From Tumebacillus algifaecis (lineage in GTDB: Bacteria > Bacillota > Bacilli > Tumebacillales > Tumebacillaceae): a DNA stretch of 64,000 nt. Position 1 is the first letter of the stretch. Every line of letters starts with the position of its first letter. This document shows positions 31,352-39,926 of this stretch, piece by piece. The stretch is from positions 3,829,501 through 3,893,500 of the forward strand of contig NZ_CP022657.1 of NCBI RefSeq assembly GCF_002243515.1, read 5' to 3'. A program made the position numbers and the translations under genes. Below the pieces are notes generated by a model. It was not told where the DNA came from. It made no database searches and worked only from the letters and a program-made list of their open reading frames with translations.

Positions 31352-31426
31352 GTGCCCTTAGTGTATCGGATATCACGGTGGCCTCCGGAGCCGCAGAGGC
31401 AGGTTCGACTCCTGCAGGGCACGCCA
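31352..31426 (+). tRNA. tRNA-Arg(CCG)
   Basis: Acceptor GTGCCCT pairs with AGGGCAC over 7 bp; positions 8-9 TA; anticodon loop CTCCGGA gives anticodon CCG; T-arm GCAGG TTCGACT CCTGC; encoded CCA at 31424-31426. A terminator hairpin follows. Confidence 0.97.
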
Positions 31427-31574: not shown

Positions 31575-32441
31575 ATGAAAAAGCCACTTCTCGCAGGTTT
31601 GATCGCAGGCGCACTGACGACAGCGCTGTTCTCCAGTTCGGCGCAGGCAAGCGTCGAGCTCTCCCCATCCGTTCCACAGTTGCAACCCGGTGTGTGGGAC
31701 TATGTTCAGGAACACCATCTGCGCGACCTGCCCGACCCCAACGAAACGCTGGCGATGGTGCAAGCCTACGCGAACACCGCACCGACTGCCGAGCAGATCC
31801 CCTACTACCGCGCGCTCGTTCAAAAATATCCGGAAAGTCGTCACGCGCACGAGCGGCTCGTCAGCGCCTTGCAGTCATCGCTGCAAGACGGTCATGACCC
31901 ACACCCCGCCAAGACAAATGTTGAAATCCTCCAACATTATTTGACCGCATCAAAAATTGCCGATTCCTTTGGCCAAACGCTCTACATAGAGAGCATCCGC
32001 CACTATGCGCTCGAATCCAGCATGCCGGAGAAAGCATCCGAATGGTATGACAAACTCCTTCGTAAAAATCCGTACAACTGGAATCTCAACATGACCTATG
32101 CGGAGCTCAACAAAGCGCTGAACAATCCGAAAGCGGAACTGTTCTACCTAAAAGCGATCAGCGCTCGCCCGGAAGGCAACCTGGATGCTCACATCGGCTA
32201 CACCGAGTATCTGCTCGACCAAGGCCGCTATGCCGAAGCGTTTCGCGTCGCACTGCTGCCCGGTGAAAAAAGCGATTACCTCGATTTTCTACACGGGTAC
32301 GCATTAGAAAAAATGGGCCGGGGCTTCCTCGCCGCCTCGTACTATTATCAAGCGCAAGGATTCTCCAAAGACTTCCCATTCCCCTCGCGCTATCAGATTG
32401 CAGCGAGCCCTTACCAAACTGGACTTCATTTTCTCGACTAA
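31575..32441 (+). CDS. Exported TPR-like protein (paralog of the next gene)
   Basis: 288 residues; AAGGAGGACTCCCCTC precedes the ATG. Signal peptide LLAGLIAGALTTALFSSSAQA with cleavage after AQA. The mature protein is an array of alpha-helical TPR-like repeats (for example EKASEWYDKLLRKNPYNWNL, AELFYLKAISARPEGNLDAH). It is alignable end to end with the N-terminal 290 residues of the protein at 32779: both have QPGVxxxxQ..L..LPDPNE, RPxGNxDAHxxYxExLLxQGRY, SxYxxFLHGYALEKxGxG and a closing SxYQxGL. It lacks the C-terminal domain of its paralog. Function unknown; likely protein-protein contacts outside the membrane. Confidence 0.75.
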   Translation: MKKPLLAGLIAGALTTALFSSSAQASVELSPSVPQLQPGVWDYVQEHHLRDLPDPNETLAMVQAYANTAPTAEQIPYYRALVQKYPESRHAHERLVSALQSSLQDGHDPHPAKTNVEILQHYLTASKIADSFGQTLYIESIRHYALESSMPEKASEWYDKLLRKNPYNWNLNMTYAELNKALNNPKAELFYLKAISARPEGNLDAHIGYTEYLLDQGRYAEAFRVALLPGEKSDYLDFLHGYALEKMGRGFLAASYYYQAQGFSKDFPFPSRYQIAASPYQTGLHFLD

Positions 32442-32446
32442 TCCAC

Positions 32447-32481
32447 GCCGCCTCTTTCTCGATGAAGGAGGCGGCTTTTTT
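32447..32481 (+). terminator. Rho-independent terminator
   Basis: GCCGCCTC / GAGGCGGC stem with TTTTTT downstream. Confidence 0.85.
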
Positions 32482-32778
32482 GCGGTCTGCACCCGGAGCG
32501 CCCTATGGTCTCCGCCGCCAAACGCATGTCCAGCTTGGCGCCACCATCCTCGCGCCTCGTCTTTGCTACATGTACCGCCACCTTCCACCTTCCGCTTCAC
32601 TGCTTATCCCTTCAGATCGAGAGCACATCCACATTAAAAATACCTCAACATTTTCTGGAACATTTTTTGTATTACTTCTTATATCGTATATAAAAATTGA
32701 ACATTGTGAACTTACATGCTATGTGTTATCCTTTTCCCGTATCATTATAATATTTTTTACATTCGGAGGTGTTTCACT
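32482..32778. other. Leader region of the TPR/SleB-like gene
   Basis: First half is GC-rich without a supported gene; second half is AT-rich and holds two promoter-like matches for the downstream gene: TTGAAC and TATGTG 17 bases apart near 32697-32725, and a perfect TATAAT near 32746 with a poor -35. CGGAGGTG at 32764-32771 is the ribosome site of the next gene. Confidence 0.4.
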
Positions 32779-34266
32779 ATGAAAAAGCTGTTCAGCATCA
32801 TGCTGGCAGCAGCACTGCTGCTCCCTCCTGCAGGAATGGAATGGAGCGGTAGCGCAGTTGCGACTGCTGCCTCGGACAAGAAGTTCCAACCCGGGGTAGA
32901 AGAGTTCATCCAAGGCAACTACCTCGGTCATGCCAACGAACTTCCGGACCCGAACGAGTCTGTCGAAGTGTTGCAGAGCTACCTGACCGCCAAGGGTTCG
33001 CCCAAAGAACTCGACACGTTCAAGAATCTGGTGAAGAAGTTCCCCGATTCCCGCCATGCCAATGTCGGTCTCGCGATGGCGTACTACAACGAGTTCGCCG
33101 CGACGAAAGACAGCAAACTGGCCAAACTCGCTTTGCAGCACGAACTGAAAGCGGCCGAAATCGCACTGACTTACGGCAAGGTGCAGTACACCGGCTGGAT
33201 CAAACAGATCGCGCTGGATGCAGGCACGCCGGAAGCGGCCGTCGCGTTTTTTGACAAAGCGCTCGCCGCTTACCCTGGCGATTTCGAAGCAGCTCTGCAC
33301 AAAGCAGAAACGTTGGGCAAGATGGGCAAAAAAGCGGAGGCAGAAGCTTCCTTTAAACAGGCGGTCGATCACCGCCCGGCGGGCAACATCGATGCGCACG
33401 CTTCCTATGCCGAATTCTTGCTTGAGCAAGGCCGCTACGAAGAGGCTGCGCTGAACACGATCCTGATCGGTGAAAGCGCGTACTACATCAGCTTCCTGCA
33501 CGGCTATGCGCTTGAGAAATTGGGCAAAGGCGAAGAAGCGCAAGCGCATTACGCCAAATTTGCTGAGTTCTCCCAATCGTTCCCGGCTCCGGCGAAGTTT
33601 AAGATCGAGCGTTCCGCCTACCAACTCGGCCTCAGCTTCGAACAACCGGTCGGCGCTGTTGCCAGCGCAAAAATGAGCCCAGACAACACGCTCGAAGCGG
33701 TGATCATGCCTGAAGCAACCACGGCGACGACCAACCTGTCATGGGCGGTCACCTGTGAGGCAGGCGGCGAAACGGTCGGCGGCATGCGCATGGTCGGCTG
33801 GTCGATTCGTCAGCGCGTCAACCGCGGCTCGACCAAAGTAAACGGCACGACCTGCCTGTCTGTCACCAACTCCGGAACGACGATGGATGACAAATACGGC
33901 AACGTCATCTGCCAATCAAGCCAATATTCTGGCGTCACCTGCAACTCGTCCAAAGATGTAACCAAGTGCACCAACTCGAACGTCCGCACGACGACGACCA
34001 ACCAAGTCGCGTTTGACGTGTACAATGGCCTGGTGCCAGACCCGTACACCGGGTACTGCCCGACCGGCACGAGCAGCAGCACGACCTACTGCACGGCGAC
34101 CTGCACAGGTGCCACGAACAACACAACCTCCTTTACCGTAAAAACTCCGCACTCGTTCTTGGCCTACTCGCATGCTCCGCTGTGGGGCTGTGCAATCAAT
34201 GCGGGTGCCGTTTGCGGTAACGGCGGCGGCGACAACTATTTTGACTACAACAACGCGAACAACTAA
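32779..34266 (+). CDS. Exported TPR-like protein with a cysteine-rich SleB-like cell-wall hydrolase domain
   Basis: 495 residues. The ATG at 32779 has CGGAGGTG 7 bases upstream. Signal peptide (LLLPPAGMEWSGSAVATAA region), then about 260 residues of TPR-like helices paralogous to the preceding gene. The C-terminal 190 residues hold LSWAVTCEAGGETVGGMRMV and SIRQRVNRG, which fits the SleB/Hydrolase_2 core (EAxGE...G...V...I..RV), followed by a Thr/Ser-rich region with ten cysteines in all (for example TTYCTATCTGATN) and an Asn-rich end. A hairpin and then a DsbA-like gene follow. I infer an extracellular peptidoglycan-active enzyme stabilised by disulfides; no substrate is known. Confidence 0.72.
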   Translation: MKKLFSIMLAAALLLPPAGMEWSGSAVATAASDKKFQPGVEEFIQGNYLGHANELPDPNESVEVLQSYLTAKGSPKELDTFKNLVKKFPDSRHANVGLAMAYYNEFAATKDSKLAKLALQHELKAAEIALTYGKVQYTGWIKQIALDAGTPEAAVAFFDKALAAYPGDFEAALHKAETLGKMGKKAEAEASFKQAVDHRPAGNIDAHASYAEFLLEQGRYEEAALNTILIGESAYYISFLHGYALEKLGKGEEAQAHYAKFAEFSQSFPAPAKFKIERSAYQLGLSFEQPVGAVASAKMSPDNTLEAVIMPEATTATTNLSWAVTCEAGGETVGGMRMVGWSIRQRVNRGSTKVNGTTCLSVTNSGTTMDDKYGNVICQSSQYSGVTCNSSKDVTKCTNSNVRTTTTNQVAFDVYNGLVPDPYTGYCPTGTSSSTTYCTATCTGATNNTTSFTVKTPHSFLAYSHAPLWGCAINAGAVCGNGGGDNYFDYNNANN

Positions 34267-34275
34267 TGCCTGAAT

Positions 34276-34300
34276 GAAGAGGGCTTCGGCCCTCTTCTCC
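34276..34300 (+). terminator. Hairpin downstream of the SleB-like gene
   Basis: GAAGAGGGC TTCG GCCCTCTTC with a stable UUCG-type loop but only a weak T-run (TCCTTC). Probably a partial terminator or an mRNA-stabilising hairpin that lets some transcripts reach the DsbA-like gene. Confidence 0.6.
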
Positions 34301-34325
34301 TTCACAAGCACAGAGGAGAGAAAAC

Positions 34326-35054
34326 ATGAAAAAATGGCTGGCTCCCGTATTGATTCTCTTTGGTGTTCTGATCATCATCCAATCTGTTGCCATCGTCCTT
34401 ACCCTATTTAAAATGAACGATCTGGAGCAAGCGCTCCCCGCACTGAGCAAACAGGTTCAACAGGCGGCTGAAGACCCCAATCAAAACGTTGACAAGCCGG
34501 GCGCGCAAACAGCCCCGACCCCGGTCGAATCGGAAGGCTTCCCAGAGCGGGGACCCAAAGATGCAGCGGTGACCATCGTCGAATTTACCGACTTCGAATG
34601 CACCTTCTGCAAATCGGTACAACCGACGATCGAGCAAGTGATGGAAAAGTATGACGGCAAAGTCCGCCATGTGTTCCGCAACTACCCGATCGGGGCGATT
34701 CATGCCGGAGCGGTCAATGCCGCGATGGCCGGACTCTGCGCGAACGATCAAAATAAATTCTGGGACTATCACGACCAACTCTTTGCCAAAGCGAACGACA
34801 GCGGCTCGCTAACCAAAGAATTGCTCAAACAAACGGCGGTAGACCTCGGCCTGAACGCATCTGCATTTAACACCTGCTTCGACAACAAAACGCACCTCGA
34901 CCGCGTCCAAAAAGACTTTGAAGCGGGCAACACCTACACCGTTTCCGGCACGCCGACCTTTTTCATCAACAACCGCATCGTCACTGGTGCTCAACCGTTC
35001 GATGTTTTCACTGAAATTATCGAAGAAGAGCTGGCCAAAGCTGCCAAATCATAA
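34326..35054 (+). CDS. Membrane-anchored DsbA/BdbD-like thiol-disulfide oxidoreductase
   Basis: 242 residues, 59 bases after the SleB-like gene, with GAGGAGA upstream of the ATG. N-terminal anchor (VLILFGVLIIIQSVAIVLTL, residues 8-27), a 40-residue linker, then a thioredoxin fold with a DsbA-type helical insert: VTIVEFTDFECTFCKSVQPT (active site CTFC), FRNYPIGAIHAGAVNAAMAG and the cis-Pro loop VSGTPTFFINNR. Two further cysteines (GLCAND, NTCFDN) could form a structural bond as in BdbD. Its place next to a ten-cysteine exported protein suggests it oxidises that protein (inference). Confidence 0.88.
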   Translation: MKKWLAPVLILFGVLIIIQSVAIVLTLFKMNDLEQALPALSKQVQQAAEDPNQNVDKPGAQTAPTPVESEGFPERGPKDAAVTIVEFTDFECTFCKSVQPTIEQVMEKYDGKVRHVFRNYPIGAIHAGAVNAAMAGLCANDQNKFWDYHDQLFAKANDSGSLTKELLKQTAVDLGLNASAFNTCFDNKTHLDRVQKDFEAGNTYTVSGTPTFFINNRIVTGAQPFDVFTEIIEEELAKAAKS

Positions 35055-35083
35055 GAGGGACCCCGGAGGGTCCCTCTATTTTG
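35054..35083. terminator. Terminator between DsbA-like gene and ltaS
   Basis: AGAGGGACCC CGGA GGGTCCCTCT followed by ATTTTG; lies between converging genes. Confidence 0.85.
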
Positions 35084-37126: not shown

Positions 37127-37816
37127 CTATACGTCCGTAGGATCAAGCAGTTGACAAATTATTTGAAATATCCCATACCACATCGCTTTTGTCAACTTTC
37201 CGGTAAATGTATTTTGCTGGCTTGGATGGTAGGAAGCAACCAAATGCGGCCGTCCATCGTCAAACGTATAACAGGCACCGTGGGCAAAGGTTAGACCTTT
37301 AACGTCGTATCCTTCTTCCTGCATGAACTTCTTATAGTTGTCAAATGCGATTTTGCCAAGCGCCAACACGACCTTCTTTTCGGTGAGCAAGCGCAGTTCC
37401 TCCGTAAAAAAGGGACGACAGTTCTGAATTTCGCCTGCGGTCGGTTTGTTCTGTGGCGGGGCGCAGCGAACGATGTTGTTGATGTAGGCGTCCACCAATT
37501 GCAGACTGTCGGTGCGATGCAACGCTTCTGGTTCGGTGGCAAACCCGAAATGATGCAGCGCTCCATACAGCCATTTGCCCGACTCATCGCCGGTGAACAC
37601 CCGTCCCGTGCGGTTGGCCCCGTGCGCGCCCGGTGCGAGGCCCAAGATGATCAGCCGGGCCTTCGGGTCGCCAAAACCGGGCACTGGGCGGCCCCAGTAG
37701 GTGTCGTCCTGATATTTTGCTTTCTTCACCTGTGCAACTTCCTGACACCACTCTCGAAGTCGAGGGCAGGCGTCGCAGGAAGTGATGCGCAAAGACAGCT
37801 CTTGAATGCGTGTCAT
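37127..37816 (-). CDS. Family 5 (UDGb-type) uracil-DNA glycosylase with 4Fe-4S cluster
   Basis: 229 residues. Motif 1 GLAPGAHGANRTGRVFTGD is the UDGb form (with Ala in place of the usual polar catalytic residue), motif with SYHPSQQN near the C-terminus. Cysteines for the Fe-S cluster: CDACPRLREWC near the N-terminus, plus RCAPPQNKPT and NCRPF. Removes uracil and related deaminated bases from DNA. ATG at 37816 has GGGGAGAGG upstream. Single-gene unit divergent from the ankyrin gene. Confidence 0.92.
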   Translation of the reverse strand: MTRIQELSLRITSCDACPRLREWCQEVAQVKKAKYQDDTYWGRPVPGFGDPKARLIILGLAPGAHGANRTGRVFTGDESGKWLYGALHHFGFATEPEALHRTDSLQLVDAYINNIVRCAPPQNKPTAGEIQNCRPFFTEELRLLTEKKVVLALGKIAFDNYKKFMQEEGYDVKGLTFAHGACYTFDDGRPHLVASYHPSQQNTFTGKLTKAMWYGIFQIICQLLDPTDV

Positions 37817-37907
37817 TTCCCTCTCCCCTTTTCACTCATTATACAGGAAATTGCCCAGCCGATCTCGAATCAGTGTATTATCTGTACTTACAGGGAGGTT
37901 CATTAAA

Positions 37908-39926
37908 ATGAAGAAGAAGACAGTTATTTCAAGCCTCTTCGCACTCATCCTAACCCTACCTCTGGCCCATGCACCTGTGCAGGCCGCTATCACCCCCGTT
38001 GAGATTCAGGTCAACGGCAAGGTGCTGTCCACAGATCAGGCTGCGTTTAATGATGATGGAACGGTATTTGTGCCGATCCGCCATTTGGCCGAAGCGCTCG
38101 GCGGCACTGCTACATGGGACAATACCAGTCGCATCGCGACTGTGACGATCGGCAATAAGAAGATTGATTTTGAGATCGGCAAGGACATCGCCACCGTCAA
38201 TAACGAACGGCTCCGCATGAGCGGGAGCACGCAGATCGTCGGCGAACGCACGATGGTTCCGATCCGCTTTATCGGGGAACATGTTGGCGGTGAAGTCAAA
38301 TGGGATCAGGCAAAACATGCGGTGATCATCGATACTCGCTCTGCACCGTTGTTTGACGCGATTCGCGCAGGCGATGTCCGAAAGGTCACCGAGCTGTTGA
38401 ACGACGGTCTCAACCCGAACGCGATCCAACTGCAAAAGTCGGCTCTGTTCACCGCGATTGAATCGGAAGAGTTGGAGATCGCTCGACTGCTCCTGCAAAA
38501 AGGGGTCGATCCCTATGGAGCGACCAACTTGCAAATGCCTACGGCCCTCCATGAGGCGGTGACCCGCGCCGATGTTCGCGCGGTCGAATTGCTGCTTTCA
38601 GCGGTGAAAAGCCCAACCTTCGAACAAAAGTTTAATCAGGAGTCTGCCTTGTACTACGCGGTGCTGCACAACCGCAATTCGATCGTGAAGGTGATGCTGG
38701 AGCACGGCGTCAACCCGAACATTCCAACGATTCTCGAATCGTATCAAAACTCTCCGGACGACCGCCCGGACAACGAATTGCTACTGTATGCGGTCCGACA
38801 AAACAACACGGAGATGGTCGCCGACCTGCTGGCCGCAAAAGCGGACCCGAACGTCCTATTCGAAAGCGAGATGCCGACCATTTTGCACCATGCGGCCTAT
38901 TTCAACATGGATACCAACATCCGCACGTTAAAGCGCTATCAAGCCGATCCGAACCGGACCACCAAGCAAGGCTGGACTCCGTTGATGATCGCCGCAGAGC
39001 GCGGACATACTGCCGCGGTCCAAGCGCTGATCGAGTCGGGCGCTCAGCTTGATCTGCAAAACGCACTCGGCGCCAACGCCTACCTGATCGCGAAAACGCA
39101 CGGCAATGAAGCGACGATGAAACTGCTGGCCGCAGCCGGTGCAGACACCGCGTACAGCCCCAAACTGAGCGACGATGCGGTCCACTTCCGAAAGCACACC
39201 ACCCATTTTCAAGAGGACGACACCGAGCTGATGCGCGCCGCCTATATCGGGCAGACCGGCTTGGTGCGTGCACTGATCGAAGGCGGTGCTAATCCGAACG
39301 CGCTCTCGGTCAATGGCTCGGCGATCAACTATGCGAGCGGCTACACCGAAACGGTCAAAGCGATCCTGAGCGCCCCGTCCTTTACAGACGAGGAGAGCAA
39401 GAACAATGCTTTGAATACGGCCATCGATGGAAGAAACGTGGAACTGGCCACCGCTTTGCTCCAAGCAGGCGCGAAGTCGACGTACCAAACGTACAACTTG
39501 GCACTGAACAACGCACCGGAGATGCTCGACTCCTTGTTCAAAAACGGACTCGACCCGAACGACGGGCTGTATGGAACAAAAAATTACGGCCTGACTCTTG
39601 CTTCCATGTGGAATCAGATCGACCTAGTCCGCACCTTCCTCGCCAACGGTGCCGACCCGAACCTCGCAGATGAGGAGGACAAAACACCGCTTATCCATTC
39701 CATCCGGCGCGGCGATGTGAACACATCTTCCCTCTTGCTCGCCAAAGGTGCCAAAGTCAACCACACCGACAACTCCGGCCACAGTGCGCTGTACTATGCG
39801 GTGAAGCGCAGTGACGTTGCCGCTGTCAAACTGCTGCTCGATGCAAAAGCGGAAGTAACAGCGGAGATCCGCGAAATGGCGAAGCAAAAAGTCGCACAAG
39901 ACGTGCTCGACCTGCTTCCAAACTAA
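37908..39926 (+). CDS. Exported copper-amine-oxidase-N domain plus ankyrin-repeat protein
   Basis: 672 residues. ATG at 37908 with AGGGAGG 9 bases upstream. Signal peptide (LFALILTLPLAHAPVQA), then a copper amine oxidase N-terminal-like domain (about 28-145: VQVNGK-type start, FVPIRHLAEALGGTATWDN, ERTMVPIRFIGEHVGGEVKWD), which in Firmicutes is a wall/stalk-associating module. From about residue 150 to the end are around 14 ankyrin repeats (for example TPLMIAAERGHTAAVQALIE, SALYYAVKRSDVAAVKLLLD). No enzyme domain. A surface-exposed binding scaffold is likely. Confidence 0.88.
   Translation: MKKKTVISSLFALILTLPLAHAPVQAAITPVEIQVNGKVLSTDQAAFNDDGTVFVPIRHLAEALGGTATWDNTSRIATVTIGNKKIDFEIGKDIATVNNERLRMSGSTQIVGERTMVPIRFIGEHVGGEVKWDQAKHAVIIDTRSAPLFDAIRAGDVRKVTELLNDGLNPNAIQLQKSALFTAIESEELEIARLLLQKGVDPYGATNLQMPTALHEAVTRADVRAVELLLSAVKSPTFEQKFNQESALYYAVLHNRNSIVKVMLEHGVNPNIPTILESYQNSPDDRPDNELLLYAVRQNNTEMVADLLAAKADPNVLFESEMPTILHHAAYFNMDTNIRTLKRYQADPNRTTKQGWTPLMIAAERGHTAAVQALIESGAQLDLQNALGANAYLIAKTHGNEATMKLLAAAGADTAYSPKLSDDAVHFRKHTTHFQEDDTELMRAAYIGQTGLVRALIEGGANPNALSVNGSAINYASGYTETVKAILSAPSFTDEESKNNALNTAIDGRNVELATALLQAGAKSTYQTYNLALNNAPEMLDSLFKNGLDPNDGLYGTKNYGLTLASMWNQIDLVRTFLANGADPNLADEEDKTPLIHSIRRGDVNTSSLLLAKGAKVNHTDNSGHSALYYAVKRSDVAAVKLLLDAKAEVTAEIREMAKQKVAQDVLDLLPN

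Follow-up and report, generated by a model that had tools for sequence, protein, structure and literature searches.

What would a predicted exported protein with ten cysteines do in a low-GC Gram-positive bacterium, and what is the role of the thiol-disulfide oxidoreductase encoded directly after it? As a rule, exported proteins of these bacteria are considered to be poor in cysteines, as though the residue were avoided there. The question is raised by a locus of Tumebacillus algifaecis that lies in a 64,000-nucleotide stretch of its 4.5 Mb genome (hereafter the window, to which all coordinates refer unless another sequence is named). The locus carries genes for two TPR proteins, tprA and tprB, the second of which ends in a ten-cysteine C-terminal domain (CTD), followed by a gene for a DsbA-family protein. 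The host is probably a spore former, and the NCBI taxonomy places Tumebacillus in the Alicyclobacillaceae. An original prediction, made from the DNA letters, had read the locus as a wall-active enzyme with a dedicated oxidase. On balance we consider it somewhat probable that tprB encodes a secreted SleB-like wall enzyme with a disulfide-dependent fold, for which the co-encoded orphan DsbA is the folding catalyst. The pair is a rare, narrowly distributed variant of known parts and not a new kind of system. If an exported domain with ten cysteines does travel with an oxidase of its own, the two genes would allow a clean test of whether a DsbA can be dedicated to one substrate in low-GC Gram-positive bacteria; the same pair would also test how a DsbA with no known DsbB is recharged, and whether disulfides stabilise or gate a SleB-type enzyme.

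The tprA gene (31575–32441, + strand; 288 amino acids) and the tprB gene (32779–34266, +; 495 amino acids) encode paralogues, with tprA corresponding to the N-terminal part of tprB (38% identity over 266 amino acids, E 1.8e-57). Both match TPR models of Pfam (TPR_14 at E 1e-7 for tprA, TPR_19 at E 1.1e-11 for tprB) and both begin with a signal-peptide-like segment, which suggests that they are exported. The preferred tprB start is the ATG at 32779, with CGGAGGTG before it, rather than the longer open reading frame (ORF) start at 32716. Counted from this start, tprB has ten cysteines, all within the last 177 residues that form the CTD (33733–34263, +), whereas tprA has none, so the claim that only the second protein carries such a domain holds. 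The shared module and the leader-like starts of the two proteins also stand as first described, although the term tandem has to be qualified, as a terminator-like hairpin with a T tail lies 3' of tprA (32447–32475, +). The DsbA gene (34326–35054, +; 242 amino acids, four cysteines) begins 59 bases after tprB (gap 34267–34325), and a second terminator-like hairpin separates it from a convergent sulfatase-type gene (35054–35077, +, found by a consensus scan of both strands). Because terminator-like hairpins lie 3' of both tprA and the DsbA gene, the likely transcription unit consists of tprB and the DsbA gene; the scan reports consensus matches only, of which the region has 11 against 5.5 expected by chance.

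Searches of Pfam, NCBIfam, PHROGs, PADLOC and PDB sequences gave the window CTD no confident name. When the four CTD family members that we found (described below) were scanned against Pfam with E values up to 10, Hydrolase_2 (PF07486) was the sole family returned, at sub-threshold level and for two of the four members (best E 0.089); the window CTD itself was absent from these matches. Profile–profile comparison pointed to the same family. In hhalign the four CTDs aligned to 26 Hydrolase_2 sequences with probability 92.5, E 4.9e-7 and a score of 44.2 over 86 aligned columns; the 26 rows were two from the window genome and 24 of 51 viral-contig loci, hand-picked for coverage with near-copies thinned. 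By comparison, 200 column shuffles gave a mean score of 11.5 (standard deviation 2.1, maximum 21.1) and the reversed profile gave 13.6. After the own-genome rows had been taken out, the window CTD scored 40.9 by itself, against a maximum of 25.9 for pieces of 400 genomic ORFs drawn from 546 mechanical ORFs, antisense included, in a 400 kb genome sample. In the same comparison tprA scored 9.1, the genome's own CwlJ-like protein 61.5 and its own SleB 191.4. Because the shuffle and genomic-ORF controls score far lower, homology of the CTD to Hydrolase_2 is well supported by these sequence comparisons, with the CTD more diverged than the genome's own CwlJ-like protein. The resemblance that had first been noticed as SleB-like EAxGE...RV features is accordingly beyond chance.

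The four CTDs come from the window genome (G000), Tumebacillus lacus (G003), a further genome of the family (G006) and L030, from a clostridial metagenome-assembled genome (MAG). Each contains ten cysteines, of which nine occupy columns identical in all four sequences and the tenth a column identical in three, being two columns off in L030. In the window CTD they stand at positions 8, 41, 60, 70, 79, 109, 120, 124, 153 and 161, with no CxxC pair. A Cys-Glu-Ala-x-x-Glu motif is invariant in all four, comprising a catalytic-type Glu, the Cys before it and a second Glu (E12 and E16 in alignment numbering, CTD residues 9 and 13). The codon of the first Glu, directly after that of the invariant Cys, lies at 33757–33759 (+), and its predicted catalytic role is assigned by analogy with SleB, in which this Glu is essential according to PMC12331253. 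The blocks that hhalign pairs, in the same order, are EAxxE, the xRV helix end, VIxQxxQ(F/Y)S (not full in every member) and the DP(Y)TG region, all shared with the SleB catalytic domain (PF07486; 4f55, 4fet). Unlike PF07486 proteins, the CTD falls below the Pfam cut-off, has ten cysteines and large inserts, replaces the N of xNRV with Q, follows an N-terminal TPR module and has a DsbA gene next door. SleB proper has an N-terminal peptidoglycan-binding domain and a ypeB neighbour, whereas the N terminus of tprB matches TPR-type models and no peptidoglycan-binding model, and its next gene is that for DsbA. A SleB is encoded elsewhere in the window genome, and we read the gene after it as ypeB. 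In a census of 33 exported-like ORFs, which is weak because the simple ORF caller retains many antisense ORFs, one doubtful ORF (L130, 13 cysteines) exceeds tprB in cysteine number.

The second gene of the pair was described originally as a membrane-anchored, BdbD-like CxxC oxidoreductase, and this description is borne out. The protein has an N-terminal membrane anchor and matches Thioredoxin_4 (PF13462) with 102.5 bits (cut-off 23.2). Its best solved chain is BdbD 3eu3, which we take to be the Bacillus subtilis protein, at E 2.2e-17 and narrowly ahead of DsbA 4pwp. With BdbD and other Thioredoxin_4 DsbAs it shares this whole-domain match, the CxxC motif (C92-T-F-C95; 34599–34610, +) and a GTPTF-type loop; CTFC or CPFC together with GTPTF, the cis-Pro loop, is present in all three aligned DsbAs. 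The best NCBIfam match is to NF041057, the Rcas_1661 family of thioredoxin-like (seleno)lipoproteins (E 2.1e-37), yet its 129 bits lie under the family cut-off of 190 bits. Unlike in the BdbD–BdbC system, no PF02600 (DsbB/BdbC) gene was detected in the window genome, and the DsbA gene is instead coupled to tprB. PF02600 gave no matches in G000, G003 or G006 and was positive in two of 15 genomes (G001, and G007, where it lies beside bdbD); VKOR was found in none of the 15. Because neither DsbB nor VKOR was detected in the window genome, re-oxidation of the DsbA would fall to oxygen, cystine or some other oxidant. Those clostridial DsbAs that are discussed as having no known DsbB or VKOR partner are alike in this respect; a neighbouring dedicated substrate is unmentioned in the portion of that source consulted (PMC12453122). 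As a separate observation, G001 has a DsbB-type gene (L111:1471-1887, - strand) yet no full-length PF13462 DsbA match.

Within the family the two genes occur together, and the DsbA beside tprB is the only full-length PF13462 match that we found in the window genome. Among the seven genomes of the family (G000–G006), the CTD gene is accompanied by a full-length DsbA in three of three genomes that have it, and a full-length DsbA is found in none of the four that lack it. Full-length PF13462 matches are confined to G000, G003 and G006, whereas G001, G002 and G005 give partial matches (24.9–41.2 bits, cut-off 23.2) to proteins that we read as FrnE-like, with no leader where the start is visible, and G004 gives none. 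Three matched genomes of seven would arise by chance once in 35 if the genomes were independent, which related genomes are not. The window genome and G006 share a chromosomal setting, whereas that of T. lacus differs: upstream we read an acyl-CoA carboxyltransferase-like gene, and downstream a set of genes resembling a branched-chain amino-acid transporter.

We propose that tprB would be a secreted two-part protein, in which the TPR module may serve for placement or partner binding and the divergent Hydrolase_2 (SleB/CwlJ-type) domain would cleave the glycan strands of peptidoglycan using the first Glu of CEAxxE. Loops and a tail would extend the SleB core, and the ten cysteines could pair into as many as five extracytoplasmic disulfides, which the membrane-anchored BdbD-like DsbA would insert during secretion. 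The nearest precedent, likened by function only, is in Streptococcus gordonii, where PMC5112981 describes the thiol-disulfide oxidoreductase SdbA as needed for activity of the autolysin AtlS. Literature searches that combined SleB with disulfides or BdbD, Hydrolase_2 or SleB with both TPRs and disulfides, and Tumebacillus with disulfides brought up no such protein in the titles and abstract openings of the matches listed.

Several observations weigh against this proposal. The main rival is that the CTD derives from SleB but is catalytically dead, forming a disulfide-braced surface- or wall-binding module that the DsbA folds and that cuts nothing. Signature residues are indeed replaced: the R of EARGE is kept in none of the four CTDs and its G in two of the four, and the N of xNRV, invariant in the 26 aligned Hydrolase_2 relatives, is Q in all four, with the R kept. 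A MAFFT alignment with three CTDs pairs GGxNxF with IGxHxF, implying replacement of His by Asn; the hhalign alignment ends before this block. The inserts, rich in Thr, Ser, Asn and Gly, would also suit a binding module. Set against this, all four members keep both Glu residues of the motif, the one at the catalytic position included, and we regard a dead module as possible but rather unlikely. Because the catalytic-type Glu is kept yet several SleB signature residues are replaced, activity of the CTD is likely but not assured. The SleB-like reading first put forward is favoured by the controlled profile comparison and by Hydrolase_2 being the sole Pfam family returned; the wall activity envisaged with it is made less certain by these replacements.

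A different alternative concerns the partner: the DsbA could be a general exported oxidase (or a reductase or isomerase) that stands beside tprB through joint movement and is not a dedicated catalyst. The MAG speaks for this. L030, in a 3.2 Mb assembly labelled Tepidanaerobacteraceae, has a TPR-CTD gene 50% identical to tprB over 455 amino acids, with an apparent frameshift ahead of the TPR part; no DsbA gene neighbours it, and PF13462 matched nothing in the assembly. The MAG may lack part of its genome, or the role may fall to a different oxidant in that organism. The two genes are adjacent in three of the four members, with L030 unpaired. Distant relatives of the window DsbA, all below 60% identity, occur on 1881 plasmid records from many organisms, and because the four family genomes that lack the DsbA also lack tprB, joint transfer or loss would explain the pattern equally well. 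The DsbA side of the genomes was scanned only with PF13462 and the window DsbA, a scope that could overlook exported oxidases belonging to other families. Against a general role stand the occurrence of the same pair in two different chromosomal settings and the matched presence or absence in seven of seven family genomes, and we judge such a role unlikely. Dedication of the oxidase to tprB, as originally suggested, is favoured within the family by co-occurrence and by adjacency in two settings; the MAG, in which no DsbA was detected, speaks against it.

A more elaborate version of the preferred wall-enzyme reading is a redox-gated lysin. The invariant Cys before the catalytic Glu and its partners would hold the enzyme in an inactive state, and its disulfides would be closed by the orphan DsbA, itself recharged by oxygen or a small disulfide, so that glycan strands would be cleaved only under oxidising conditions. 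We consider this version improbable.

It is also conceivable that the CTD is unrelated to SleB and resembles its motifs by convergence. No Pfam model scored the CTD above its cut-off, and the PDB sequence search found no relative. AlphaFold on three CTDs alone gave a predicted local distance difference test (pLDDT) score of 30 and the model was discarded. Scored singly in hhalign, the T. lacus CTD reached 27.7 (probability 36), barely above the highest genomic-ORF control, while the other three reached 41–46. When 20 Hydrolase_2 rows were added, AlphaFold on the resulting 23-row alignment modelled residues 1–100 with block-mean pLDDT values of 81–95 and one block at 63, with the remainder below 60. 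The top three Foldseek rows for this steered model were SleB catalytic domains (4f55/4fet; E 0.2–0.39, probability 0.60–0.82), and VIA gave Z 7.6–7.8 over 82–85 residues, a range that the tool itself terms common. The structural check is thus split between a failed unsteered model and a steered one that is compatible with a SleB fold but does not count as independent evidence, because its alignment contained Hydrolase_2 rows. The two control sets nevertheless leave the hhalign score far outside the background, with the motif blocks in order across the aligned columns, making an unrelated CTD very unlikely. Least credible of all is that the ten cysteines bind a metal such as zinc, which their high density would suit and their even number would suit as well as it does disulfides, but which the signal-peptide-like start, the neighbouring thiol oxidoreductase and the scatter of the cysteines over the domain with no CxxC pair make highly improbable.

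Searches outside the family found few CTD relatives. A tblastn search of plasmids and phages found none, and searches of viral contigs found neither a CTD relative nor a relative of the DsbA; plasmids gave no match to the TPR module. A scan of the genome collection that used the window CTD as query confirmed no locus, whereas one based on the alignment and on two peptide patterns yielded two confirmed loci; because only two patterns were used, distant CTD relatives can be missed. At class level 41 of 398 genomes matched at E up to 0.1, with the same three strong matches and 38 weak ones; the weak matches were not accepted, their best E being 0.0014 and many having internal stops.

The distribution fits either gain of a tprB–DsbA cassette or repeated loss. 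Relatives of tprA are present in G006 (60% identity) and G005 (59%), and in G005 the gene lies in a setting that shares neighbour genes with the window; G005 has no CTD match and no full-length DsbA. G001 retains a broken TPR remnant related to tprA and tprB (L137:5335-5943). In L030, two transposase-like genes (L030:11268-13947) lie about 3–5 kb downstream of the tprB-like gene, a hint of mobility. In G006 we read a GGDEF-EAL-like gene and LtaS-like gene fragments between tprA and tprB. The LtaS-like (sulfatase) gene beside the tprB–DsbA pair in that genome is present as short fragments only (L006:7023-7704, -), apparently the remains of a decayed copy; G005 has a long one (L136:492-2435).

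A lipoprotein-like third gene was considered as a partner of the pair and rejected, as it was not found in the window genome, is separated from tprA by about 28 kb in G006 and also occurs in the CTD-less G005. Lipoprotein-like homologues with 36% identity and no Pfam name do flank the tprB genes of the MAG (L030:8583-9485) and T. lacus (L007:7180-7989, -), with relatives elsewhere in G005 and G006.

Between tprB and the DsbA gene the window contains an intercistronic hairpin (34276–34297, +; z -2.5), and hairpins of unlike sequence occupy the same interval in G006 (z -1.7) and T. lacus (z -4.4). A tRNA-Arg (CCG) gene lies just upstream of tprA (31352–31426). Further downstream, the window encodes a protein (37806–39926) in which a copper amine oxidase N-terminal domain precedes numerous ankyrin repeats; its start appears signal-peptide-like by eye.

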